Source of the DNA: a virus
Direction: 5' to 3' (one strand)
Length of the DNA stretch: 24,822 nt
Virus record (IMG/VR): IMGVR_UViG_3300006752_000213
Span: 1 to 24,822 of that record
Numbering within the stretch: the stretch's first letter is position 1; the number at the start of each line of letters is the position of its first letter. This document shows positions 1 to 21,863 of this stretch, one piece after another. A model generated the notes under the pieces. That model was not told the origin of the DNA. It searched no databases and worked only from the letters and a program-made list of their open reading frames with translations. Both the position numbers and the translations under genes were made by a program.

Positions 1-1028
1 ATAAAACCGCAGAAGAATTAGCGGCAGAGTCTTCAGGGGCATATTCAGTAGGCGACATTGTAACTGACGACAGGATTGTTGGTAAGTATCAGTATATTTA
101 TGACGCAGATGCTGATGTGTTTCATTTCACTCCGTTTGATGACAGTGGCAATAGAATCTACACAGGGGAAACACTAGATGCTTCTACTGTGAAAGGCTTT
201 GATTCAGGCGAGGCAAGTACAGGTGATACTAAATCTATTATGTTTGACCCTGTAACAGGCGAGGCAAGCGTTGAGCAGATTGGCGATGCAAGCACTAACA
301 CAGACGACACTAAAGACACAGGCTCTACAGGTGATTTGTTAAACATCACTATTACCGGAGGCAGCTTAGTTGATGCTGTAATCAACTCTAAGATTTATGG
401 GCCATTTCAAACAGATGGCGATACGGTGGTTACAAACGGTGATGATAAAGCTGTTATTACTAACGGCGATGACAATTCTGATGATGAAGATGATGAAGCT
501 GAAGATGACACAATTGTAGATGACACAATTGTAGATGACACAATTGTAGATGATGACGGTGATGATGGCGGTGATGATGGCGACAAATCAATTATTGTAG
601 GAGACAAAGGGGACAAAGGGGACAAAGGGGACAAAGGGGACAAAGGTGATGACGGTGATGATGGCGATGATGGCGATGATGGTGATGATGGCGATGATGG
701 CAAGGATGGTGATGATGGCAAGGATGGCCTAGACGGTCGTGATGGATTAGATGGCCTAGACGGTCGTGATGGATTAGATGGCCGTGATGGTGATGATGGC
801 CTAGACGGCAATGACGGAAGAGATGGTAATGACGGTCGTGATGGTCTAGACGGAAGAGACGGTCGCGATGGGAAAGACGGCAAAGACGGAGTTATAGGAT
901 TATTTACTGCTATTCAAGGCGCTCCGTTAACAGAATCAATTTTATTCGAGCCTCAGTTTACAGAGCTTGATAACGTACAGCAGGGAATGTTTGAAAGATT
1001 CCTTCGTGCCGCAGGAGGCAGACGATGA
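1..1028 (+). CDS. Collagen-like virion structural protein, 5' end cut by window edge
   Basis: The frame is open from base 3, so the real start lies left of the window; the GTG at 117 is only an internal codon. The protein ends in TGA at 1026-1028. The N-terminal part is acidic and Ser/Thr-rich. From 600 to 887 there are 32 consecutive Gly-X-Y triplets (GDK x5, GDD x6, then GLD, GRD, GND and GKD), followed by a non-repetitive C-terminal cap of about 45 residues. Every triplet carries Asp and none carries proline. Gly-X-Y phage proteins usually form trimeric stalks on fibres or capsids. The gene overlaps the adaptor gene by ATGA. Its place just upstream of the tail-tube genes suggests a virion fibre or spike, but the exact location on the particle is inference. 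Confidence 0.8.
   Translation, partial: KTAEELAAESSGAYSVGDIVTDDRIVGKYQYIYDADADVFHFTPFDDSGNRIYTGETLDASTVKGFDSGEASTGDTKSIMFDPVTGEASVEQIGDASTNTDDTKDTGSTGDLLNITITGGSLVDAVINSKIYGPFQTDGDTVVTNGDDKAVITNGDDNSDDEDDEAEDDTIVDDTIVDDTIVDDDGDDGGDDGDKSIIVGDKGDKGDKGDKGDKGDDGDDGDDGDDGDDGDDGKDGDDGKDGLDGRDGLDGLDGRDGLDGRDGDDGLDGNDGRDGNDGRDGLDGRDGRDGKDGKDGVIGLFTAIQGAPLTESILFEPQFTELDNVQQGMFERFLRAAGGRR
504..548 (+). repeat. Three exact 15-bp tandem repeats in the collagen-like gene
   Basis: The unit GATGACACAATTGTA occurs at 504-518, 519-533 and 534-548 without mismatch and encodes repeated DDTIV. It is in frame, so gain or loss of a unit would leave the protein readable. Confidence 0.9.
603..647 (+). repeat. Five 9-bp tandem repeats encoding Gly-Asp-Lys
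   Basis: The unit GACAAAGGG is repeated from 603 to 647; only the last base of the fifth unit differs. It encodes the first GDK triplets of the collagen-like stalk. The near-identical codons point to recent slippage expansion, not just protein-level selection. Confidence 0.9.
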
Positions 1029-4446: not shown

Positions 4447-6126
4447 ATGGCTATAGACGTACAAAGCCTGTTCGCGGACATCATTGATACTCCTGAACAG
4501 CGTCAACAGAAACTACTTCAACAAGGCATGGCGCAAGGTCAACTCCTTGCATCAGGTCTTCGTGGTCGTGCAGCAGCGTTAGCCCCTCTTGCTCAGGTAG
4601 CAGGTCAACTTGGTGTTCAGCGTAGTGAAGACCTCCGCCGTGCAGTGCAGCCTATGATTGGTATTGACCCAAGGACTACGGGTGAGAAGCTTGCAGAGCA
4701 GCTAGGCCAAATAGACACCTCTACTCCTCAAGGCTTAATGCAAGCAGCTCAGGCTATTCAGTCTATTGATCCTGTTCGCGCGGCTGCATTAAGGCAATCT
4801 GCTACCGAACTAACACGAGAGTTAGAAGATCGCGAAAGAAAAATGAAACGAGAAGACGAGGCAGATGAAAGAGCTAGAGCAGCTCTCGCATTGGAGACTG
4901 GGTCTTTTATTGACAGAATGACTACAGCAGCAATGCAGCGCGATCAACTTGCACTCACAACACAAAGATTGCAAGGCACTATTGAAGATGAAGAAACTCG
5001 TAGAAATATCGAGCAAGAAGCTAGAGCCGCAAGAAAAGAGCTAGAAGAAAACTTAGCTGATGCTTATGCCGAAAATCCTTCGACTAGAGAGCTGTCTGAT
5101 TTTATTCGTAGCGGAGCTATGTCAACACAAGGACTGGAAAGCTTAATTACTCCCTCTCAAACTGAGTGGAGTTTTGATACTCAGCAGTTTGTTGGAAAGG
5201 ATGGCAAGACTGTAAATATGAGGGTTGCTGTTGATACTACAAACCCAAGCAACATTGTAATAATGAATCCCGCTAAAGATCAGCCAGAGCCTACCAAGCT
5301 TCCGGAAGTGCCAAAACTAACTGAGTCAGAGATAGATAATCAGTACGCTCCTGCAATAAATAACAACCCAACACTAAAATCTTTAGTTGAAGGAGAAAGT
5401 AATTTTTTGGGCGAAGATGATCCTGCTGCTATTACGATCGAAGAGCTTTCTGACGTAATGCACACTTTGAGATACAGCAAAAAAATTCCTTTACCTCAAG
5501 TTAATACCATTATCACTCAGTTAGCGAGAGAAAATCCTGACGCATTAGCTAGAGGAATAATTCCTCAGCAATATATAAATTTAGCGCAACAGTCTATTGG
5601 TAGTGGAGGAAATCCTCCTCTTAATCCGGCAGAACAAAACACAGGAACAAGCACCGACCCTCAACCTTTGTCTGATGACATTTTTTCACGGTATCCAGAC
5701 TTAAGAATTTTGCCAAGCAGAGATGTTACTCCTTCAACTCAAGCGCAAGGAGGCATGCCTATCCCTCCTGCTCAGGATTCTGTGCCTAATCCATTTAATG
5801 TAGGTATAAACACAACAGCTCAGCCTGTCTCAGATATGCGGCTTGGCTCACCCGCTGTAGGATATGACGAGGCATTTACTAGACAAATACAAATGGAAGA
5901 AGAAAGAGTTCGCGAAGGTATTGTTAGCCCTTATAGGCTCAACATAGTTAAACGCAACTTTTCTCGTCAGCTAGAAAAAAGACAAGAGCAACTTAAAAAC
6001 GAACTAAGATATTTGAAGGGCTTAAAAAGCTATGCTGCTCCCAATAAAGAAGAGCGCATTTCGGCAGTTCAGTCTCAGTTAAAAGACGTAGAGCAAAAGC
6101 TTAACCGATACAAAGTCTCAGACTAG
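4447..6126 (+). CDS. Internal virion / ejection protein (middle), coiled-coil
   Basis: This is a 559-residue protein preceded by a good ribosome site (AGGAG, 8 bases before ATG). The N-terminus is Gln/Ala-rich. Residues about 125-205 are charged and helical (ERKMKREDEADERARAAL and similar), predicting a long coiled coil. The middle is Pro/Asn-rich, and the last 70 residues are again a Lys/Glu/Gln coiled coil. The composition and position between the other two candidate ejection proteins resemble T7 gp15 or P22 gp20. No enzyme motif is visible. Function is inferred from context. Confidence 0.58.
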   Translation: MAIDVQSLFADIIDTPEQRQQKLLQQGMAQGQLLASGLRGRAAALAPLAQVAGQLGVQRSEDLRRAVQPMIGIDPRTTGEKLAEQLGQIDTSTPQGLMQAAQAIQSIDPVRAAALRQSATELTRELEDRERKMKREDEADERARAALALETGSFIDRMTTAAMQRDQLALTTQRLQGTIEDEETRRNIEQEARAARKELEENLADAYAENPSTRELSDFIRSGAMSTQGLESLITPSQTEWSFDTQQFVGKDGKTVNMRVAVDTTNPSNIVIMNPAKDQPEPTKLPEVPKLTESEIDNQYAPAINNNPTLKSLVEGESNFLGEDDPAAITIEELSDVMHTLRYSKKIPLPQVNTIITQLARENPDALARGIIPQQYINLAQQSIGSGGNPPLNPAEQNTGTSTDPQPLSDDIFSRYPDLRILPSRDVTPSTQAQGGMPIPPAQDSVPNPFNVGINTTAQPVSDMRLGSPAVGYDEAFTRQIQMEEERVREGIVSPYRLNIVKRNFSRQLEKRQEQLKNELRYLKGLKSYAAPNKEERISAVQSQLKDVEQKLNRYKVSD

Positions 6127-11123: not shown

Positions 11124-11232
11124 TTACTCCCGATAAAAGATATGACGACCTATCTGCCGTCTAGTGCCAAGGCCGTCAACCCAATAAGGATTAACTTCCT
11201 CCCTGTGGTAGTAAACAGGCTATCTCAAGCAT
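11124..11232 (-). pseudogene. Possible frameshifted small ORF
   Basis: An ATG at 11230-11232, overlapping the stop of the gene upstream, reads only 13 codons. One base shift after GCC would join it to an open stretch ending at TAA 11124-11126. That would give about 35 residues with a protein-like tail (NPYWVDGLGTRRQIGRHIF). The open stretch has no start of its own. It may be a decayed gene, a sequence error or chance. It fills an otherwise empty 103-bp gap in a region where genes normally overlap. Confidence 0.3.
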
Positions 11233-11413: not shown

Positions 11414-11848
11414 TCACCTCGCGGGAAACGGTATGTAGACATTAAACTTCTCGCTCAGGTGCTTGCTTAGAACCTGATGCACCTTGTCGTAATCTTCTGT
11501 CCCCACGGTAGAGGTTGAGTCTGTGCCAGTTACCGCTTCTTGCACAGGTTTCCATAGGTACTGTTTAACTAATTCTGTAGTCCAAGGAATCTCTGCCTCT
11601 TGCTTAAGGGTTTTCTTCATGTCATACCCTGCGTCATTCAAAGCCTCTGATAACATACGGCAGTAGACATGCAGTGCATTGTTCTGTTTGTGGGTTCTAG
11701 TCTTTCCTACCTTCCACTTCAAAGTCACATAGCCCTTCGTGTCGTACAGATGCTCTATATGCTTCTTGAACATATCCAAGCTATGCCTATTGTTGACGAC
11801 CCAAAACTCTCCTTGATCTATAGGACTATCCAAGTTTTGCCACCTCAT
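11414..11848 (-). CDS. ninB: NinB/Orf-like recombination mediator
   Basis: This is a 144-residue protein, almost the length of lambda NinB (146 aa), an ssDNA-binding recombination mediator. The pattern RTHKQNNALHVYCRMLSEAL, then IPWTTELVKQYLWKPVQEA, then STSTVGTEDYDKV near the C-terminus is shared by many phage proteins assigned to this group. Together with NinG in the same block it recalls the lambda nin region. Direct similarity to lambda NinB is limited to the Q-N core and overall size, so the call is by family resemblance. The start lies 23 bp inside the preceding HTH gene. Confidence 0.62.
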   Translation of the reverse strand: MRWQNLDSPIDQGEFWVVNNRHSLDMFKKHIEHLYDTKGYVTLKWKVGKTRTHKQNNALHVYCRMLSEALNDAGYDMKKTLKQEAEIPWTTELVKQYLWKPVQEAVTGTDSTSTVGTEDYDKVHQVLSKHLSEKFNVYIPFPAR

Positions 11849-12020
11849 CCATAGTCATGCCTAGCTGCTCGCAAACATTTCTAAATGTAGACACTAAAAC
11901 ATTCTGCCGCGAGAGTAGGTGAGAATAGTTAGCATGGCTCATACCTATAGCATCAGCCACGGTCTTACGAAGTATCCCAGTCTTCTCGTGGGCTTTCTTA
12001 ATACAATTCCCCGTGTGCAT
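11826..12020 (-). CDS. Small helix-turn-helix DNA-binding protein
   Basis: This is a 64-residue protein with an XRE-type helix-turn-helix: the first helix is KKAHEKTGILRKTVADAI, and turn plus recognition helix are GMSHANYSHLLSRQN, followed by a stabilising helix (FRNVCEQLGMTMDEVAKLG). It resembles Cro-sized regulators. It is the first gene after the leftward terminator at 12031-12052; its ribosome site (AGGAGA) follows the terminator T-run. It may regulate the nin-like block or the GTGTTAC repeats of the control region; both ideas are inference. Confidence 0.75.
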   Translation of the reverse strand: MHTGNCIKKAHEKTGILRKTVADAIGMSHANYSHLLSRQNVLVSTFRNVCEQLGMTMDEVAKLG

Positions 12021-12294: not shown

Positions 12295-12894
12295 CTATTG
12301 GAAAAATTTTTCTACATTCTCTTCGATCAGTTTCACAGCTTTAGAAACACATGCTTCTAACTCTGCAATGTAATCCTCGTCTCGCTCTACACGAACGATC
12401 AGAGGTTTCATGTTGGGATGGTAGGACATAAAATCCCACCACTCCCGTCCGGTTATCCATAGACAACCCATGACCTGCTGCTTGTACTTGGAGGGGAGTT
12501 TGTCCCCCCTCAGGTACTCAACGTGTGTGGCAGGAGCGGGGCATTTAATCTCTAATCCCCCGTCCTCGCCTATCAGTCCATCAGGACTTGCACCTGCCTC
12601 GAGGGTGTCATGTAGGCAGAACCCTACCTGCTGCACCTCAGAGCCAGTAATAAACTCATACAGCTGTCTCGCGTCAGGCTCTAACTCTGTCCCTCTAATC
12701 ATGTGTTCGTTCTGGTAGAAGGGCGTAGTCTCTCCGGTAAGCTTCTCTGCCACCAGTTGATTAATATACGAGTCAGCCTGAGTAGACCACTTGCCTTGGG
12801 TCGTAATGATCTTGGCGTACATTGACGCTGAAGGAATACCTAGCCTCGCGGCTAACCACTCGTCTGTACCCTGCTCACAGTCAATGCAGCGCAT
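12295..12894 (-). CDS. YqaJ/lambda-type recombination exonuclease
   Basis: This is a 199-residue 5'-3' exonuclease candidate of the lambda exonuclease / YqaJ family. Visible motifs are QGTDEWLAARLGIPSAS (N-terminal family motif), MIRGTELEPDARQLYE, then GASPDGLI (D105) and GGLEIKCPA (E115, K117), giving the PD-(D/E)XK triad. QQVMGCLWITGREWWDF is the usual late motif. I chose ATG 12892-12894 because GGAGG lies 6 bases before it; a longer frame back to 12921 lacks such a site. With the ERF protein two genes upstream it forms an exonuclease-annealase pair that resects and anneals phage DNA ends. Confidence 0.88.
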   Translation of the reverse strand: MRCIDCEQGTDEWLAARLGIPSASMYAKIITTQGKWSTQADSYINQLVAEKLTGETTPFYQNEHMIRGTELEPDARQLYEFITGSEVQQVGFCLHDTLEAGASPDGLIGEDGGLEIKCPAPATHVEYLRGDKLPSKYKQQVMGCLWITGREWWDFMSYHPNMKPLIVRVERDEDYIAELEACVSKAVKLIEENVEKFFQ

Positions 12895-13090
12895 CTTTAG
12901 CCTCCAAGATTTCAAACTCAATCAAGGACACAATTTTAGAAACTTTGTCCGAAATATCAGAGTTGAGGATTGCAGACACTTCACGTTTTAGCTCGCGGTT
13001 CTTTTCTAGCTCAAGCTGCTCCTCCTCATCAAGAGCCTGTTCCTGAGCGGAGAGATAGCGGTTTAGGTCTACCATTACTGGGTCGCTCAT
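12881..13090 (-). CDS. Small coiled-coil protein between annealase and exonuclease
   Basis: This is a 69-residue, highly charged helical protein (EEEQLELEKNRELKREV) predicted to form a coiled coil. The ribosome site is GGAGG four bases before ATG. It starts in an ATGA overlap with the ERF gene and ends 14 bp inside the exonuclease gene, so all three are coupled. It has no recognised family; a bridging role between the two enzymes is only a positional guess. Confidence 0.7.
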   Translation of the reverse strand: MSDPVMVDLNRYLSAQEQALDEEEQLELEKNRELKREVSAILNSDISDKVSKIVSLIEFEILEAKDALH

Positions 13091-13665
13091 AAAGCCTCCG
13101 CTTTCTTATCAAGGATTTCCTTGGCCATATCAAACTTGTTCGCATCTAATTCAGATACAGACTCGCACTTAAAAGTTTTGCAGAACCTTTGTAGGTCTGA
13201 CTCTGTTTTCTCAATCAGATCAGAGATAACTTTGGCCTGAGCCTTGGTGATAGTTTTAGCTTGTGCTATAGGCGCGGCCTGTGTCGCAGCGTTACCATCG
13301 TCATCCTCTGAGGGAATCCCTGCGATAGACTGTAGTGCGTAGCGTCTCGCGTAGGTGATAGCTGAACCCGCTGCCTGTGCATCCATCTTCCCCAAGGGGA
13401 TGAAGTAGTCCTGCTCTAACCACTCGCCTGACGAGTGCATGAGGCGGGTAGTAACACCGACTGAGTTTTCTCCAGTAACAGGGAATTGCACATAGCTAAG
13501 TCCATGCTTGGCAAAGGGAGGCTTGACTGCATCGATGACATCCCCCAAGTCGGCGTATTTAGATTTGAAGAATGGGTTGGAAGCTGATTTCGTTGCCGCG
13601 CCCATATCGCCCTGTGCCGCCGCCATTGCTCCGGCTAGGTTCTTAATTGATTCTGACTGCTTCAT
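13087..13665 (-). CDS. erf: ERF-family single-strand annealing protein
   Basis: This is a 192-residue member of the ERF superfamily (P22 Erf type), which anneals complementary single strands. Family signatures are AGAMAAAQGDMGAATKSA with NPFFKSKYADLGDVIDAV, then GLSYVQFPV, then YFIPLGKMDAQAAGSAITY followed by ARRYALQSIAGIPSEDDDGN. The C-terminal 60 residues are a more variable helical part. The start is ATG 13663-13665, which forms ATGA with the upstream stop and has AGGGG before it; a further-upstream start would overlap that gene needlessly. Confidence 0.92.
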   Translation of the reverse strand: MKQSESIKNLAGAMAAAQGDMGAATKSASNPFFKSKYADLGDVIDAVKPPFAKHGLSYVQFPVTGENSVGVTTRLMHSSGEWLEQDYFIPLGKMDAQAAGSAITYARRYALQSIAGIPSEDDDGNAATQAAPIAQAKTITKAQAKVISDLIEKTESDLQRFCKTFKCESVSELDANKFDMAKEILDKKAEAL

Positions 13666-14054
13666 ACTGTTGCCCCTTGTGTTTCCCATAGGTGAATGAT
13701 CTGTGCATCTTTTGCGTAATCTTTCTCGAACTTCTTCAAAGCTGACACAGCTATCTCCACGTTCTGATCTAATACATACCGCGCATAGTCGCGCAGTGTA
13801 GTGTTAGCCTGTTCGTGAAACATAGCTATGTCGGAGATGTTGCCTGAGTGTAGCGATTTGATTAGGTCAACCGCGAATGTCTCGCAGTAGGCCTGTGTGT
13901 GTAGCGCCTCAATCAGGAAGTCGAACCCTGACTCGCGGACTACGATTGATACGAATTCATCCACGAGGGAATCAGGCAGGTCTAGCTGACCTTCGTGAAT
14001 CCAAGTGAATACATCTTCGCGGTTTAGAAATGACTCGATGGTTTGTATTTTCAT
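13662..14054 (-). CDS. Protein of unknown function upstream of erf
   Basis: This is a 130-residue helical acidic protein (IESFLNREDVFTWIHEGQ ... NTTLRDYARYVLDQNVEIAV). The start is ATG 14052-14054, with GGGAGGGG five bases before it; an in-frame TTG further up would lie on the ribosome site itself. No family is recognised. It lies between the helicase and erf, so it may serve either recombination or replication. Confidence 0.72.
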   Translation of the reverse strand: MKIQTIESFLNREDVFTWIHEGQLDLPDSLVDEFVSIVVRESGFDFLIEALHTQAYCETFAVDLIKSLHSGNISDIAMFHEQANTTLRDYARYVLDQNVEIAVSALKKFEKDYAKDAQIIHLWETQGATV

Positions 14055-14083: not shown

Positions 14084-15055
14084 CTAAAACATAAACTTGT
14101 CGCGGTCAACATTATCATCAAAATAAAAATGCACCGGCCTATCTTCCTGCTCGGTTACCTGTAAGCTGTTGGAATGAAAGTAAAAATTGTATCTTCCCTC
14201 CCAACTACCATGCCTTTGTTTCGCTACCACGATGTACTGGTCGTAACTTTTTTCTAAGTATTCCTGCTGCTTTTCGTCTAGCTCTACCAGTTTGGATAGC
14301 TCTTTCAGCTTGTGTCTTTTCTGATTGGCGGCAATCACTAGCACGTTGTCCGCGAGGTCTGAGATAGTAGACGCGCCCCGAATGTCATGCTTATCACCTA
14401 TGTAATCATCCCCTGCTTGCTGAGGCTTTCGTAGGTGAGCGATGAGCATTACATGAATACCCAGAGTCTTACACGCATGCTGTAGTCGGTTGATGAAATC
14501 AGTCTCACCGTTGCGGTCGTCAAACTTAATCCCGCACTTGGTAAGGGAGTCTATGACCATAAACTTAACCCCTAACTCCTTCGCGCAGTAGTGGACTACC
14601 GCGAGGATTCTGGCGCTCTCCACTGTGTCCAGTTGGTCGTAAATTACTATGTTCTTGTCCACAAAATCCGCGAACTGGTTGATAAAATCCTCAGTAGGCT
14701 CGCCGTCCTTAGCCCCCGCAGACTGTAGGCACATCCGCCATAGTGTTTCGGAGGGTTTCATCTCGAGTGACGCAATGCAAACCTTGGAATGCTTCGCGAG
14801 CTTCAAGCAAAGCTGTCCAACAAGAATCGATTTCTTCGCGCCATTAGCTCCTGCCACGATGGTTAGCTCGCCCTCCCTCAAGCGAAACGTGTCGTATGTC
14901 TTAGGCCAAGGCAGCTTAGCTCCCCATATTTTCTCGCCCTTCGATCTTTCAATCACATCTTCCCGCCAGTGTCCGGCAGATTTAACTTGCTGCGCCTCCA
15001 TCATCGAGGTGAGCTCGATGTATTTGTCTAGCTCCAGTCCTTCGGGTATTTTCAC
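14084..15055 (-). CDS. DnaB/gp4-type replicative helicase with altered Walker A
   Basis: This is a 323-residue RecA-fold helicase of the DnaB / T7 gp4 C-terminal type, without the usual N-terminal domain. Motifs in order: Walker A region GANGAKKS (69-76); SLEM (96-99) with the family's catalytic Glu; Walker B FMVIDS (165-170); HVMLIAHLRKP; and RGASTISDLADNVLVIA, the DnaB motif 3/4 region. The sixth Walker A position, normally Gly, is Lys74 (codon 14834-14836). The start is GTG, forming a GTGA overlap with the initiator gene upstream, so helicase translation is probably coupled to it. Confidence 0.85.
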   Translation of the reverse strand: MKIPEGLELDKYIELTSMMEAQQVKSAGHWREDVIERSKGEKIWGAKLPWPKTYDTFRLREGELTIVAGANGAKKSILVGQLCLKLAKHSKVCIASLEMKPSETLWRMCLQSAGAKDGEPTEDFINQFADFVDKNIVIYDQLDTVESARILAVVHYCAKELGVKFMVIDSLTKCGIKFDDRNGETDFINRLQHACKTLGIHVMLIAHLRKPQQAGDDYIGDKHDIRGASTISDLADNVLVIAANQKRHKLKELSKLVELDEKQQEYLEKSYDQYIVVAKQRHGSWEGRYNFYFHSNSLQVTEQEDRPVHFYFDDNVDRDKFMF

Positions 15056-15660
15056 AGCTCAATCTCCCACGAGGCGGTCGGCTTTTCTTTTGCTAACTGT
15101 TCCTTCCTGCGGCCTTCCCATGTTCTAACTGTAGCCTTCCAAGATTTCATTTTATTTGTCCCCACAATCCATCCCCTTGATTCGTACCAGTCCACAAATC
15201 TCTCAGCATCTAAACCATTCCCTCGCTCCTCACAGTAGGCCTTCACCTGCTCCACTGTTGGTGGCTTAAATATATTTGTTTCTTGTTTATTGTTTAGTTG
15301 TTGTCGCTTTGTTTGTCGTTTGCTTGTCGTTTGCTTGTCGCTGTCCTGATACTGGCAGTAGTTAGTTATTGATATGATTGAGTATTTACTGAAATTCTGC
15401 TTGTCAATTTGGTGACAGTTTTCGAACCGTTTGATTGTCGTTCTTAAACGCCTCACTGATATGCCTAGTCTGGCACTCACTGAGTTAAGGCCGAAAACTA
15501 TCTGTCCTCTCTTTAAATTCAATGGCTTACCGTTAAATGAGACGGTCTTATCCTCCACCGCAGCACCCATCAGGAGGTAGAGCCAAAGCTTCAGCGCCTC
15601 GGGGTCGTCCCAAACAAACGAGTCTTGTATCTTGCGGTCTAATCTAATCCACCCGATCAT
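15052..15660 (-). CDS. Winged-helix replication initiator / helicase loader
   Basis: This is a 202-residue protein. The N-terminal half (GWIRLDRKIQDSFVW, ALKLWLYLLMGA, LKRGQIVFGLNSVSARLGIS) is the winged-helix domain of phage replisome organisers of the DnaD-like / lambda O-like group. A Lys/Gln/Thr linker (about 108-133) contains the iteron-like DNA repeats. The C-terminus (PPTVEQVKAYCEERGNGLDA, then FVDWYESRGWIVG, KMKSWKATVRTWEGR) is a motif common at the end of phage initiators and probably contacts the helicase. It is joined by 4-bp overlaps to the primase zinc finger and the helicase, forming one replication unit. Confidence 0.8.
   Translation of the reverse strand: MIGWIRLDRKIQDSFVWDDPEALKLWLYLLMGAAVEDKTVSFNGKPLNLKRGQIVFGLNSVSARLGISVRRLRTTIKRFENCHQIDKQNFSKYSIISITNYCQYQDSDKQTTSKRQTKRQQLNNKQETNIFKPPTVEQVKAYCEERGNGLDAERFVDWYESRGWIVGTNKMKSWKATVRTWEGRRKEQLAKEKPTASWEIEL
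15265..15344 (-). repeat. Iteron-like array plus AT-rich stretch, candidate replication origin
   Basis: The core TTGTCG (plus strand) starts at 15301, 15313, 15324 and 15335, in near-identical units such as CTTGTCGTTTG spaced 12, 11 and 11 bp. Outliers are TTGTCA at 15401 and TTGTCG at 15435. Beside it, 15265-15300 holds 29 A/T in 36 bases. The 11-bp period is not a multiple of three, so protein-level repetition cannot explain it. Lambda has iterons and an AT-rich element inside its initiator gene O in the same arrangement. Confidence 0.6.
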
Positions 15661-16049
15661 ATCTCAACCCCTGCCGCATCTAGCACGGCCTGAGCCTTAT
15701 AGATTGCCTTGCGGTCTTCAGGGGTAGGGTTTAGATTCCCCTCGCTTGCCCATACCTGCACCAATTCCATCAGGCATTTAGCTGAGTCTATCTCCTCGCG
15801 GGTAGCCTTGTTAAACTCCGGCTTATACCCGTCCTCGGGGTAAATATCTGGCCACGATAATGACGCAGCCGATAGAATCACCTCTGCGGTACATCCTGCG
15901 AAACAGTGAATAAGAATCTTACCGTTGTCTAAGTGTTTGATACTTAAAGAATTAGACCCGTCATCGTGGGCAGGGCATTTCGCCATTGCCTTGTCGCCAG
16001 ATTGCCTGACATCCTCGAGCCTTGATAATACTTTGCTATAGTCTGACAT
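15657..16049 (-). CDS. Stand-alone primase-type zinc-finger protein
   Basis: This is a 130-residue protein with a CHC2-type zinc site: C25-P-A-H28 and, 20 residues later, C49-F-A-G-C53, set in KCPAHDDGSNSLSI and ILIHCFAGC. In primases this domain recognises the template and is followed by a Toprim catalytic core; here the protein ends without one and no Toprim gene is seen in the window. The following genes are initiator and helicase, so a role at priming is likely, perhaps with host DnaG. Its ribosome site (AAAGGG) lies inside a stable hairpin. Confidence 0.78.
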   Translation of the reverse strand: MSDYSKVLSRLEDVRQSGDKAMAKCPAHDDGSNSLSIKHLDNGKILIHCFAGCTAEVILSAASLSWPDIYPEDGYKPEFNKATREEIDSAKCLMELVQVWASEGNLNPTPEDRKAIYKAQAVLDAAGVEI

Positions 16050-16129: not shown

Positions 16130-16735
16130 TTAGCCCCCTTCGGGGGGCGTTTCTAACAATTCACCCCAACGGGTAAGCCCTGCATACTCTAGCCTTTTCG
16201 GATTTCGCATTTTCCTTAAGGCCTTGCCGTATATTTGCCTCACCCTCTCCTTACTCACCCCGTACACATTGCCTATTGCCTCCCATTTATGTTCCTCCCC
16301 CTCGAAACCGAGCCGTAGCGATACGACCTCCGCCTCTCTTTTGGTTAGCATCCCCAACATACTGCCTACTGCCTCGCGCTTTGCCCCTATCTCCATAATT
16401 TGGGCAGGGTCTAGCGTGTCCTCCTCGAGGCGCACTAGCTCGTTAGCGTTTGCCTGTATAGTTTTTTTGTTGGTCTTTAGCGGCTCGATTATCTGAGCCT
16501 CGGGGTATAATTCGTGCGGCATGAGATTAAAAAAATCACATAGCCTCATAAAACACTTACGATACTCCCCGCGAAAATCGTACACGCTTTCCTGCAAGTT
16601 TAAATATCTGCAAGCCTGAGTATAAGTAATCCCCGCCTGCCTTGATAACTCAGCAGCGGAAGCAATCCCCTTCCGATCCATAGCACTAGCTAATAGATTA
16701 TTTTTAACCTTTATCTCTACCCTATAATCCTTCAT
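16130..16735 (-). CDS. HTH plus sigma-70 region 4 transcription regulator
   Basis: This is a 201-residue protein with two DNA-binding parts. Residues 1-80 (RVEIKVKNNLLASAMDRKG, then AAELSRQAGITYTQACRYLN) form a Cro/XRE-like helix-turn-helix. Residues about 130-190 (LTKREAEVVSLRLGFEG, then WEAIGNVYGVSKERVRQIYG) match sigma-70 region 4, which contacts the -35 element. No region 2 is present, so it cannot be a full sigma factor. Proteins of this layout occur in other phages and are often labelled sigma factor. The start is ATG 16733-16735 with GGGAGGG before it. It has its own upstream promoter-like region and is a candidate early-to-late switch. Confidence 0.82.
   Translation of the reverse strand: MKDYRVEIKVKNNLLASAMDRKGIASAAELSRQAGITYTQACRYLNLQESVYDFRGEYRKCFMRLCDFFNLMPHELYPEAQIIEPLKTNKKTIQANANELVRLEEDTLDPAQIMEIGAKREAVGSMLGMLTKREAEVVSLRLGFEGEEHKWEAIGNVYGVSKERVRQIYGKALRKMRNPKRLEYAGLTRWGELLETPPEGG
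16133..16148. other. Stable hairpin with UUCG loop at the end of the sigma-like gene
   Basis: GCCCCC-TTCG-GGGGGC is a perfect 6-bp stem with the extra-stable cUUCGg loop when read on the plus strand; it encodes the last residues of the leftward gene (PPEGG). Neither side has a good T-run, so I do not call it a terminator. It may protect the 3' end of the mRNA. Confidence 0.6.
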
Positions 16736-16747
16736 CAAACCCTCCCC

Positions 16748-18533: not shown

Positions 18534-18773
18534 TTAAAGTCTATTATCTTGCATAGCTTCCGCTAGTGTTTCGCAATAATTACCGCTTTCAAAGAATGGC
18601 GCATCGCCCGATCTAGAAGGATCAATTGCTCGCCAGACAACGAACGGGTGTAGCGAGTGTTCGCGCTTTACTATTGCCATCGCGGATGGATAGCTAAACG
18701 AGTCACCGTTCGAATTCTTAACTAGGTCAATTAACTGGCCGTTTACTTGTTCTAATGCTTTGCTTAAATCCAT
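18534..18773 (-). CDS. First early leftward gene, unknown function
   Basis: This is a 79-residue protein. I start it at ATG 18771-18773 because CACTTAAGGGGAA lies just before it; an open frame continuing to 18860 has no such site and runs into the control region. The sequence (ALEQVNGQLIDLVKNSNGDS, then HPFVVWRAIDPSRSG) ends in a short acidic helix (CETLAEAMQDNRL). No family is recognised. As the first gene after the leftward promoter it should be the earliest expressed and is a candidate host-takeover protein, by position only. Confidence 0.66.
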   Translation of the reverse strand: MDLSKALEQVNGQLIDLVKNSNGDSFSYPSAMAIVKREHSLHPFVVWRAIDPSRSGDAPFFESGNYCETLAEAMQDNRL

Positions 18774-18925
18774 TGCGTGATTCCCCTTAAGTGATGCGCT
18801 GCACCGTTGCCGCGCTTTCGTAAAGTACATTGCATGCGCCGTGCCAAGTCCTGCCAACAATCGAAAACAATTTTAAAACTTCAATGATTACAACGCGTTG
18901 CGGATGAAAATAAATTCACCGGATT

Positions 18926-18954
18926 GTTTTACTGTATAAATACACAGTGTTCAA
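18926..18954 (-). promoter_or_regulatory. Candidate leftward early promoter
   Basis: On the minus strand TTGAAC (18949-18954), a 17-bp spacer and TAAAAC (18926-18931) match sigma-70 boxes at 4 of 6 positions each with ideal spacing. Transcription would start near 18919 and give a leader of about 145 nt before the first gene. Confidence 0.5.
18930..18949. promoter_or_regulatory. LexA-like SOS box
   Basis: TACTGTATAAATACACAGTG carries the gammaproteobacterial LexA core CTGT-N8-ACAG with an A/T-rich centre. It differs from the ideal TACTGT-N8-ACAGTA only at the last base. It fills the spacer of the leftward promoter, the usual place for LexA repression. Confidence 0.72.
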
Positions 18955-19013
18955 AAGTGTTACTGTGTTACCGTAAAGTGTTACCGTGTTACCGTGAAAG
19001 TGTTACCGGTAAC
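18955..19013. repeat. Five-copy GTGTTAC operator array ending in a palindrome
   Basis: GTGTTAC starts at 18957, 18965, 18978, 18986 and 19000. The 20-bp block AAGTGTTACYGTGTTACCGT occurs at 18955 and 18976, a 21-bp period, and a shortened third block at 18998 ends in the perfect palindrome GTTACCGGTAAC (19002-19013). The array lies just upstream of the leftward promoter. Confidence 0.85.
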
Positions 19014-19018
19014 AGATT

Positions 19019-19068: not shown

Positions 19069-19103
19069 TAGCGAATCTCGCCAATAGTTAGCGAATCTCG
19101 CCA
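19069..19103. repeat. Pair of 15-bp direct repeats with internal dyad
   Basis: TAGCGAATCTCGCCA occurs at 19069-19083 and 19089-19103, a 20-bp period. Each copy contains GCGA-ATC-TCGC, a short palindrome such as a dimeric repressor would bind. It may be the operator for the rightward transcript. Confidence 0.8.
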
Positions 19104-19172: not shown

Positions 19173-19355
19173 ACTGTGTGCGCGCGAATTATTATAGTTG
19201 CCCCCCAAATTTGCAGCAGGCAAAATTAAAAAAAAGCCAGAATCAGCATTAACTCTCGCGCACGTAATATCTAGCGTTGTACAAAAATTAGACAATAATT
19301 AAAACTCATGTTTCAATGCAGTTAATTAATCTTAGATAATAGATACGAACCTGTT

Positions 19356-19718
19356 ATGAAAGACAACACAGATAAGCCTAAACGCAGAGTAGGTAGACCC
19401 CGCAAGGATGAGCTAATCCCACCCAAGAGGGGTAGGGGTAGACCCAAGGGCGACCACTCAGCTATGCAGGAGATGAAGCAGAGGTTCTTGGCTAGAAGAG
19501 ACACCCCTGCGGTAATCAACTCTATTTACAAGGCGGCTATGGATGACGACCACAAGAACCAAGCTGCTGCGTGGAAGCTGATTATAGATAGGGTCTTGCC
19601 TGTCAGTGCATTCGACAAGGACAAGATGGGCGGCAAGCCTACGGTCAACATCACTATCTCAGGCGTAGGAGAAACTCCTGTGATAGACGGAGAGGTTATA
19701 GACCATGAACCTGATTGA
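19356..19718 (+). CDS. AT-hook protein, probable small terminase subunit
   Basis: This is a 120-residue protein. The N-terminus has two AT-hook-like motifs, VGRPRKDE and RGRGRPKGD, which bind the minor groove of A/T-rich DNA. A helical middle (EMKQRFLARRDTPAVINSI, then AAAWKLIIDRVLPVSAFDKD) and an acidic tail follow (VNITISGVGETPVIDGEVID). Proteins with this C-terminal layout commonly precede phage large terminases. As first gene of the packaging block it is the likely DNA-recognition subunit. No strong ribosome site precedes ATG 19356, and an in-frame stop just upstream rules out a longer form. The role is inferred from order. Confidence 0.62.
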   Translation: MKDNTDKPKRRVGRPRKDELIPPKRGRGRPKGDHSAMQEMKQRFLARRDTPAVINSIYKAAMDDDHKNQAAAWKLIIDRVLPVSAFDKDKMGGKPTVNITISGVGETPVIDGEVIDHEPD

Positions 19719-20224: not shown

Positions 20225-20619
20225 TGGCCTACACTAAACCCGGATTACGCGAGAGCATTAAGAAGCGCGTAATGGCAGGGTCTAAAGGTGGTAAGGCAGG
20301 TCAGTGGTCAGCCCGTAAAGCCCAACTCGTAGCACAGGAGTACAAGGCTAAAGGAGGCGGCTACTCTGGCGGCAAGACTAGTAATCAAAAGTCTTTATCC
20401 AAGTGGACTAAAGAGGATTGGGGTACTAAGTCAGGCAAGCCGTCAACCCAAGGCAAGAAAGCCACAGGTGAAAGGTATCTCCCTAAGAAAGCTAGGGATT
20501 CTCTTTCCTCTAAGGAATACGCCGCTACCTCGCGGAAGAAACGTGAGGATACAGCTAAAGGGAAGCAGTTTTCTAAGCAGCCCAAGAAGATAGCTAAGAA
20601 GACCTCGAGAAGTAGATGA
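20224..20619 (+). CDS. DUF5872-type very basic protein
   Basis: This is a 131-residue Lys/Arg/Ser-rich protein. The order YTKPGLRESIKKRVMAGSKG, GQWSARKAQLVAQEYKAKGG, SLSKWTKEDWGTKSGK, then GERYLPKKARDSLSS and EYAATSRKKREDTAKG is the DUF5872 pattern, a domain I know from phages and also from large eukaryotic DNA viruses. Function is unknown; the charge points to DNA or RNA binding. It lies between the 37-residue basic protein (TAATG) and the large terminase (ATGA). Confidence 0.8.
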   Translation: MAYTKPGLRESIKKRVMAGSKGGKAGQWSARKAQLVAQEYKAKGGGYSGGKTSNQKSLSKWTKEDWGTKSGKPSTQGKKATGERYLPKKARDSLSSKEYAATSRKKREDTAKGKQFSKQPKKIAKKTSRSR

Positions 20620-21863
20620 ACCTAAACATAAGTCTCCTAGAGTGGCAGAAGAAGGTTTGGAACGACCCCACGCGTTTCAAAGTGGTTGCTGCGGGTCGCC
20701 GGACGGGCAAGTCTCGTTTGGCGGCTTACCTTTTGATAGTCAACGCCCTGAAGTCAGATAAGGGGCAAGTGTTCTATGTCGCCCCCACTCAGGGTCAAGC
20801 TAGGGACATTATGTGGAATCTCCTCTTGGAGATAGGCCAACCCGTTATAGAAAACTCTCACGTTAATAATATGCAGGTCAGGCTGATCAACGGCACTACG
20901 ATTAGCTTGAAAGGTGCGGACAGACCTGAGACTATGCGTGGTGTAAGCCTTAAGTTTCTGGTCATGGACGAATACGCGGACATGAAATCAGATGTTTGGG
21001 AGCTTATCCTTAGACCTGCGTTGACAGACCTGAAGGGCGAGGCTTTATTTATCGGGACACCAATGGGTAGAAATCATTTCTATGAACTCTACAAACAAGC
21101 CAGTTTAGGCACAGACCCCACTTATAAAGCATGGCACTTTACCAGTTACGACAATGACTTACTTGATGAGTCAGAGATAGACGCAGCTAAGCAATCAATG
21201 TCCTCCTATGCCTTCCGGCAGGAGTTTCTTGCTTCCTTCGAGGCTAGAGGCTCTGAGATGTTCAAGGAGGATTGGATTAAGTTTGACGAGGAAGAGCCGA
21301 CTACAGGTGACTACTATGTCGCCATTGACCTCGCGGGCTTTGAGGAGGTCGGCAAAAAGACCCGAAACAAAAAGCTTGACAACACTGCTATATCTATAGT
21401 AAAAGTCGGCGAATATGGATGGTGGGTTTGTGATATAATAGCCGGACGTTGGGAGTTGAATGAGACTGCCCAAAAGATATTTCAGGTTGTTAGGGATTAC
21501 GAACCCGTCTCAGTAGGCATAGAGAAAGGCATAGCCCGTCAGGCTGTGATGTCTCCGCTTACCGATCTTATGAGGAAATATCAGCGTTTCTTCCGTGTTG
21601 AGGAACTGACTCACGGAAACAAGAAGAAGACAGACCGTGTGATGTGGGCATTACAGGGTAGGTTTGAGAATGGCATTTGTACCTTAAACAAAGGTGAGTG
21701 GAATGTCCAATTCTTAGACGAGATATTTCAATTCCCTGATGCTCTAACACACGATGACATGGTGGACGCACTAGCCTACATAGATCAGTTGGCTACTGTG
21801 TCCTACGCGTATGACTTTGAAATTGATGACTACGAAGTCATAGATTCTGTTTCGGGATACTAA
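20616..21863 (+). CDS. terL: Terminase large subunit
   Basis: This is a 415-residue packaging motor and nuclease. The ATPase domain has Walker A AAGRRTGKS (25-33), the YVAPTQGQARDIMW motif, Walker B LKFLVMDEY (113-120, with E119) and the coupling motif FIGTPMGRNHF. The nuclease domain shows YYVAIDLAGF (D238), the RFENGICTLNKG region and HDDMVDALAY near the end, giving the three acidic RNase-H-like sites. It works with the small subunit and the portal encoded directly downstream. The ATG lies in an ATGA overlap. Confidence 0.96.
   Translation: MNLNISLLEWQKKVWNDPTRFKVVAAGRRTGKSRLAAYLLIVNALKSDKGQVFYVAPTQGQARDIMWNLLLEIGQPVIENSHVNNMQVRLINGTTISLKGADRPETMRGVSLKFLVMDEYADMKSDVWELILRPALTDLKGEALFIGTPMGRNHFYELYKQASLGTDPTYKAWHFTSYDNDLLDESEIDAAKQSMSSYAFRQEFLASFEARGSEMFKEDWIKFDEEEPTTGDYYVAIDLAGFEEVGKKTRNKKLDNTAISIVKVGEYGWWVCDIIAGRWELNETAQKIFQVVRDYEPVSVGIEKGIARQAVMSPLTDLMRKYQRFFRVEELTHGNKKKTDRVMWALQGRFENGICTLNKGEWNVQFLDEIFQFPDALTHDDMVDALAYIDQLATVSYAYDFEIDDYEVIDSVSGY

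Follow-up and report, generated by a model that had tools for sequence, protein, structure and literature searches.

The stretch of DNA analysed here (the window) covers all 24,822 bases of a single linear virus record (IMGVR_UViG_3300006752_000213), for which no near DNA match was found among 50,697 isolate phage records. A nearly identical record, G002, extends over 34,853 bases, and a relative, G003 (34,719 bases), begins and ends with the same 127 bases, suggesting a complete genome of ~34.6 kb; among the records whose ends were compared (G002–G006), only G003 had signs of completeness. The rightward genes of the window include a lysozyme-like protein, the terminase large subunit (TerL), and a portal protein, while a leftward block (~18773 to 9077) contains recombination and replication genes and regulators, with SSB-like, NinB-like, and NinG-like proteins also encoded within it. 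A collagen-like protein with long GDD/GDKGD repeats, perhaps a tail fibre, occupies 117–1028 (+). Neither tRNAs nor Rfam families were detected in the window. The genes and control features considered below are:

11826–12020, minus strand: 64-aa Cro-like HTH protein, a candidate phage regulator (from its translation and homologues; the G003 homologue matches phrog_1373, transcriptional regulator, 0.0018)
12295–12921, minus strand: YqaJ exonuclease (PF09588, 8.2e-30)
13087–13689, minus strand: ERF single-strand annealing protein (PF04404, 1.1e-29)
14084–15055, minus strand: DnaB-like helicase (DnaB_C, 9.5e-14)
15052–15660, minus strand: DnaD-like helicase loader/initiator (via the G003 homologue, 91% identity: phrog_2514, 5.1e-32)
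15657–16049, minus strand: primase zinc-ribbon-like protein (phrog_6088, 2.8e-14)
16130–16738, minus strand: regulator with a weak Cro/C1-type HTH (HTH_26, 0.0024, under the HTH_26 cut-off) and sigma-70 region 4 (Sigma70_r4, 3.1e-12), the HTH-sigma4 protein
18534–18773, minus strand: first leftward gene, 79 aa, no assigned function (open reading frame; the ATG is our choice)
18831–18846, minus strand: candidate sigma-54-type (-24/-12) promoter TGGCACGGCGCATGCA, reading leftward (7/8 scored letters; conserved in relatives)
18926–18954, minus strand: TTGAAC-17-TAAAAC pair, probably no promoter (chance-quality match; TTGAAC not conserved)
18930–18949, palindrome, strand not given: LexA-type box TACTGTATAAATACACAGTG (matrix score, and counterparts at the equivalent position in relatives)
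18954–19008, plus strand: five GTGTTAC-type repeats with starts 8, 13, 8, and 14 bp apart (a repeat family, beside the box in near relatives too)
19001–19014, strand not given: perfect palindrome TGTTACCGGTAACA at the end of the GTGTTAC repeat array (from its sequence and inverted repeats)
19356–19718, plus strand: first rightward gene, with an AT-hook motif, perhaps the small terminase (homologue in 28 of 28 tabulated records or loci)
20616–21863, plus strand: TerL, the anchor for finding relatives (phrog_2, 3.7e-41)

Homologues of the first leftward gene occur at 68–80% in three relatives (L153, L159, and L168), and a longer reading of the gene, from a TTG at 18860, had no PHROG match. Upstream of it, a preliminary description of this DNA had reported a LexA-like site, and its sequence and coordinates were right: the box occupies 18930–18949, with a CTGT-N8-ACAG core between a TTGAAC and a TAAAAC. 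The likeness to LexA also held up when scored. The matrix was built from 16 E. coli LexA sites, five of which (recA, lexA (two), sulA, and umuDC) were verified in MG1655. On this matrix TACTGTATAAATACACAGTG scores 23.5 bits, a value exceeded by only one of the 16 matrix sites (own range, 13.2–25.7 bits), and the next best place in the window reaches 10.5 bits. No score this high arose in 100 mononucleotide shuffles of the window (maximum, 19.7 bits), and the expected number of such full-site scores in the window is ~1e-4. The palindrome, with its TA-rich core, has the form of a beta- or gammaproteobacterial LexA operator. The bare core, by comparison, is not above chance, as CTGTN8ACAG with at most one mismatch has 14 matches in the window compared to 10.7 ± 3.3 expected, and two further exact cores lie at 11203 and 17125. 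This frequency would agree with a chance likeness devoid of function, an account that is contradicted by the full-site score and by conservation beside unrelated flanks and that we regard as barely credible. Because the bare core is no commoner than in shuffles, the weight of evidence falls on the full site and its conservation, and judged on these the box is a real site with a fit to LexA.

Relatives were collected by a terminase scan, from which the best 80 of at least 600 matches were kept, and boxes were counted in the 35 of these 80 TerL loci with at least 2.5 kb upstream (the other 45, with <2.5 kb, were left out). A box of at least 16 bits was present in 15 of these 35 relatives, themselves among the 80 matches kept, compared to ~0.2 boxes expected over the same DNA from the chance rate. 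The box belongs to the control region of the leftward recombination and replication operon, as had been proposed for the window, and is conserved across the phage lineage. In the window's half of the terminase tree (20 rows including the window) it was present in 14 and absent from six, a tally in which L023, L027, and L029 count as box-less though they are probably short of the control region; L005, L016, and L038 are close relatives that reach the control region and are without the box. The other half of the tree had a box in 2 of 16 (L065 and L075), with 14 lacking one. L015 and L016 possess identical TerL, yet their early control regions differ, box included, and for this reason rapid exchange of the control region or left arm seems to take place. 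No other shared dyad was seen by eye in 19 relatives without a 16-bit box, and two ERF neighbours, Pseudoalteromonas phage Pq0 and Vibrio phage LP.2, had no box in the stretches covered (29,896 of 33,399 and 33,582 of 37,128 bases; best scores, 12.2 and 10.8 bits, respectively). Several contigs each had between two and five boxes scoring 13 bits or more (L030, L132 = L036, L133 = L031, L134, L136 = L033, L137, L140, L143, L144, L146, and L148), and LexA-like boxes are clustered in L030 (around 5112–5180, 15–18 bp apart), L031, L033, L036, L134, and L140.

Across ten representatives, mean pairwise identity was close to chance in the two flanks (0.287 and 0.289), compared to 0.891 in the outer box and 0.506 in the inner 8 bases, the box figures being inflated by the picking of these representatives on LexA score. 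A test of the inner bases on 37 score-selected boxes was repeated without score selection. When TACTG..CAG alone was used to choose the boxes (27 distinct ones), their inner 8 bases had a LexA score of 3.99 versus −1.03 ± 0.49 when permuted (0/5000), and for seven well-separated representatives the score was 4.07 versus −1.15 ± 0.98 (0/5000). L164, a locus without homology to the clade that fits the combined pattern of motif and box and scores 9.8 bits, was retained in this test. The base adjoining CTG was T or G and the base adjoining CAG was A or C, matching the LexA sites of the matrix. That TGCA, CGTGCCA, TACTG, and CAGTG are conserved in L149–L175 follows from the patterns used to search for these loci.

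The preliminary description had also placed the box inside the spacer of an early leftward promoter, and this was not borne out. On the minus strand, TTGAAC (18949–18954) and TAAAAC (18926–18931) are 17 bp apart and each match the consensus at 4/6 positions (8/12 in all), with the last T of the -10 missing; the window contains 100 pairs at this 17-bp spacing that match equally well or better (52 and 48 on the two strands). A promoter scan of the window did not list the pair. TTGAAC stood at the corresponding place in none of the relatives displayed, and TAAAAC was kept only in L131 (duplicate L095), L174, and L175 among the near-group relatives displayed. Over 30 distinct box regions, the best box-overlapping pair, with a poor -10 penalised, had a mean score of 7.5 leftward and 7.4 rightward, such that no promoter orientation stands out. 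Given its chance quality, non-conservation, and absence from the promoter scan, the pair is probably not the early leftward promoter, and the operon has a conserved sigma-54-like motif 83 bp closer to it. With respect to a LexA operator that overlaps or adjoins its promoter, the overlapping pair is of chance quality and not conserved, and the nearest strong candidate in the near group is 39–83 bp off.

This candidate, TGGCACGGCGCATGCA, presents GG-N10-GC within TGGCAYG-N4-NTGCW at 18831–18846, as do relatives, which retain TGGCAYG and TGCW while the spacer letters vary. It is the sole place in the window with at least 6/8 scored sigma-54 letters around GG-N10-GC, and 0.2 places with at least 7/8 letters are expected in random sequence of the window's dinucleotide make-up. 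The motif lies 57 bases before the chosen ATG of the first leftward gene and would put the leftward transcript start near 18820. Overall, the leftward operon in the window's subgroup probably starts at a sigma-54-type promoter. Such a motif was unexpected in the control region of a phage early operon; among the literature matches listed, titles and abstract openings showed no phage early operon driven by sigma-54 and no report of this lineage's box. At least 7/8 sigma-54 letters were present on the minus strand in 12 of the 35 relatives and on the plus strand in one (L009). Distant, box-less relatives such as L055, L058, and L079 carry three tandem 8/8 sites upstream of TerL, whereas a random sequence as long as the window should have 0.017. 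When viral contigs were scanned for the motif and box in combination, 26 stretches with short spacing and eight with long spacing were found. L164 was rejected as a clade member, being a chance match at 9.8 bits without such homology; the remaining new loci have this control region in common and, apart from the short L161, also code for homologues of window proteins. Motif and box stand 83 bp apart in the window, L131, L174, and L175, and 39–40 bp apart in the other clade members displayed.

The E. coli pspA sigma-54 promoter shares the TTGGCACG-type -24/-12 motif (TGGCACGCAAATTGTA lies upstream of pspA in MG1655), whereas the function of the phage motif is predicted from its sequence. The AAA+ domain of bEBPs (PF00158) was found in none of 10 records, most of which are possibly incomplete, and a host bEBP would be required for sigma-54 use, as none is phage-encoded in these records. 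At 19069–19103 (+), TAGCGAATCTCGCCA occurs twice, 20 bp apart, and is also present in the box-less L005; AGTTAGCGAAT within the TAGCGAATCTCGCC repeats of this segment was considered as a PspF-like site, with the likeness to E. coli pspF-pspA amounting to one 11-base match. Given that the box lies 39–83 bp upstream of the -24/-12 motif, and that both elements are conserved together in the near group, the box could be the upstream site of a host sigma-54 enhancer-binding activator. The two elements come apart, however: among 36 loci (the 35 relatives and the window), seven had both, nine the box only, six the motif only, and 14 neither, and because they occur separately the box is not simply an enhancer of the -24/-12 promoter. 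Further, we know of no activator with a CTGT-N8-ACAG site, and an activator site is considered improbable.

The GTGTTAC repeats adjoining the box are possible operators or replication iterons, and the palindrome TGTTACCGGTAACA at their end is kept in many relatives and broken in some. The box might be part of a replication origin that includes either these repeats, as iterons, or DnaA boxes; whatever protein bound it there, whether LexA or a different one, would control replication, not transcription. In L031 and L033, DnaA-like boxes of the TGTGGATAA type adjoin the tandem LexA-like boxes. The same region holds the promoter motif, which argues against an origin, and we rate this role as very improbable. 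Upstream of the rightward genes, a AATTATTATAGTNNSCNCCCANNTTTGCA element at 19187–19215 (+), exact in 21 viral-contig stretches, is perhaps a late promoter.

Control of the operon had been described as operating without a phage repressor, which stands in part. Within 10 records, most of them possibly incomplete, searches gave no S24 peptidase (PF00717, E 0.001) or LexA DNA-binding domain (PF01726, E 1), and in the same set there was no tyrosine integrase (PF00589), resolvase (PF00239), or ParA-type ATPase (PF13614). A PHROG scan of 30 G003 proteins likewise gave no integrase and no CI-like repressor. As in the Bacillus phage GIL01, then, no CI/LexA-type repressor of the phage's own was found in the 10 records, with small HTH proteins remaining; the part of the claim that fails is that the operon does encode the 64-aa Cro-like HTH protein and the HTH-sigma4 protein. 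The box could be the operator of a phage regulator, most likely the 64-aa protein, with its likeness to LexA only apparent. The 64-aa HTH gene is present in many box bearers (G002, G003, G004, G007, L010, L015, L022, L031, L163, L165, L143, and L146). Its presumed recognition helix, by our reading, nevertheless varies (SHANYSH, ERPNYSH, TPANYAH, SAANYSH, ASSNYNA, and DSGNYCR) while the box core is constant, the gene also occurs in the box-less G006 (L038/L118) and L145, and the inner bases of the box fit LexA. No homologue was found in the box bearers G008 and G009, a result that counts little, as the G009 record seems to be without that part of the operon and the G008 record may be. Among the loci covered, the HTH-sigma4 protein was confined to near-copies of the window, the G003 contig, L175, and L086; it was not found in the box bearers G004, G007, L010, and L015, and was rejected as a general box binder. 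From the varying helix beside a constant core, the box-less carriers of the 64-aa gene, and the absence of the HTH-sigma4 protein from several box bearers, we infer that host LexA is the likeliest ligand of the box; an operator for a phage regulator is rather unlikely.

With moderate confidence, the box is proposed to be a host LexA operator of the beta- or gammaproteobacterial type that would gate the early leftward operon from upstream and tune or defer lysis. A LexA dimer on 18930–18949 would keep the divergent control region of this operon partly shut, and DNA damage, or infection itself, would activate RecA, with LexA then cleaved and the operon opened as part of the SOS response. Given that neither integration genes nor a CI-type gene turned up in the records searched, the box probably serves to postpone or adjust an otherwise lytic cycle (an SOS-gated lytic deferment or carrier state) rather than to keep up an integrated prophage. 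The usual occlusion by LexA is not seen, because no conserved promoter overlaps the box. Since the best promoter candidate of the operon is sigma-54-like and downstream of the box, LexA would exert its effect from an upstream position, by hindering an enhancer-binding activator or by blocking some second promoter that went unrecognised, with no filling of a sigma-70 spacer. Against the LexA model, box bearers that lack the -24/-12 motif show no recognised promoter candidate, the box is absent from three close relatives that reach the region and from 14 of 16 rows in the other half of the tree, and either of the two phage HTH proteins could bind it. A broader proposal, put forward tentatively and with considerable doubt, is that a widespread, apparently non-integrating lineage gates its early operon by two host stress inputs, the release of LexA (SOS) and a host-activated sigma-54 promoter; the phage, lacking lysogeny genes, would wait in the cell for its host to run into trouble, and the box would persist through exchanges of the remaining control region.

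CTX is an integrating filamentous phage. Its rstA/rstR control region is described as under LexA plus RstR (PMC3323433), and the likeness to the present case is a LexA site in the control region of a Vibrio phage, the difference being that CTX has its own repressor, RstR (PMC3323433). For GIL01, LexA with gp7 is described as repressing P1 and P3 through host LexA boxes, tandem at P3 (PMC6182141), and GIL01 appears as a known LexA user in PMC4551915 also. GIL01 is alike in the lack of a dedicated repressor, as described, and in host LexA boxes in phage promoters (PMC6182141). It differs as a temperate phage on Bacillus thuringiensis with a LexA-like activator, gp6 (PMC6182141), whereas the best relative of the phage studied here is a tailed phage of ~34.6 kb, with no LexA-domain protein found. 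CtrA sites are described in promoter regions of alphaproteobacterial phages, with ‘lytic deferment’ proposed for the timing of lysis, and the same source describes LexA use as having evolved independently in several phage groups (PMC9437464). These phages also place host transcription-factor sites in their promoter regions, but the factor there is the cell-cycle factor CtrA, with binding shown (PMC9437464), whereas here the site is of LexA type and a response to DNA damage is predicted. The lineage, the apparent absence of lysogeny genes, and the sigma-54-like motif set this case apart from known LexA users; LexA co-option itself was already known.

A terminase search of genome contigs assigned no host, returning five MAG contigs with very different taxon labels that are probably misbinned. 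If this reading is right, the box offers a fragment of DNA short enough to be tested directly and points towards a host group. It also raises sigma-54-driven early phage transcription as an unusual possibility. The evidence suggests that phages with the box read a host distress signal despite no sign of the usual dormancy genes. If so, phages of an uncultured lineage that turns up often in samples would link their early genes to damage of the host's DNA via one borrowed operator, and SOS sensing by phages would not be limited to the classic temperate phages.
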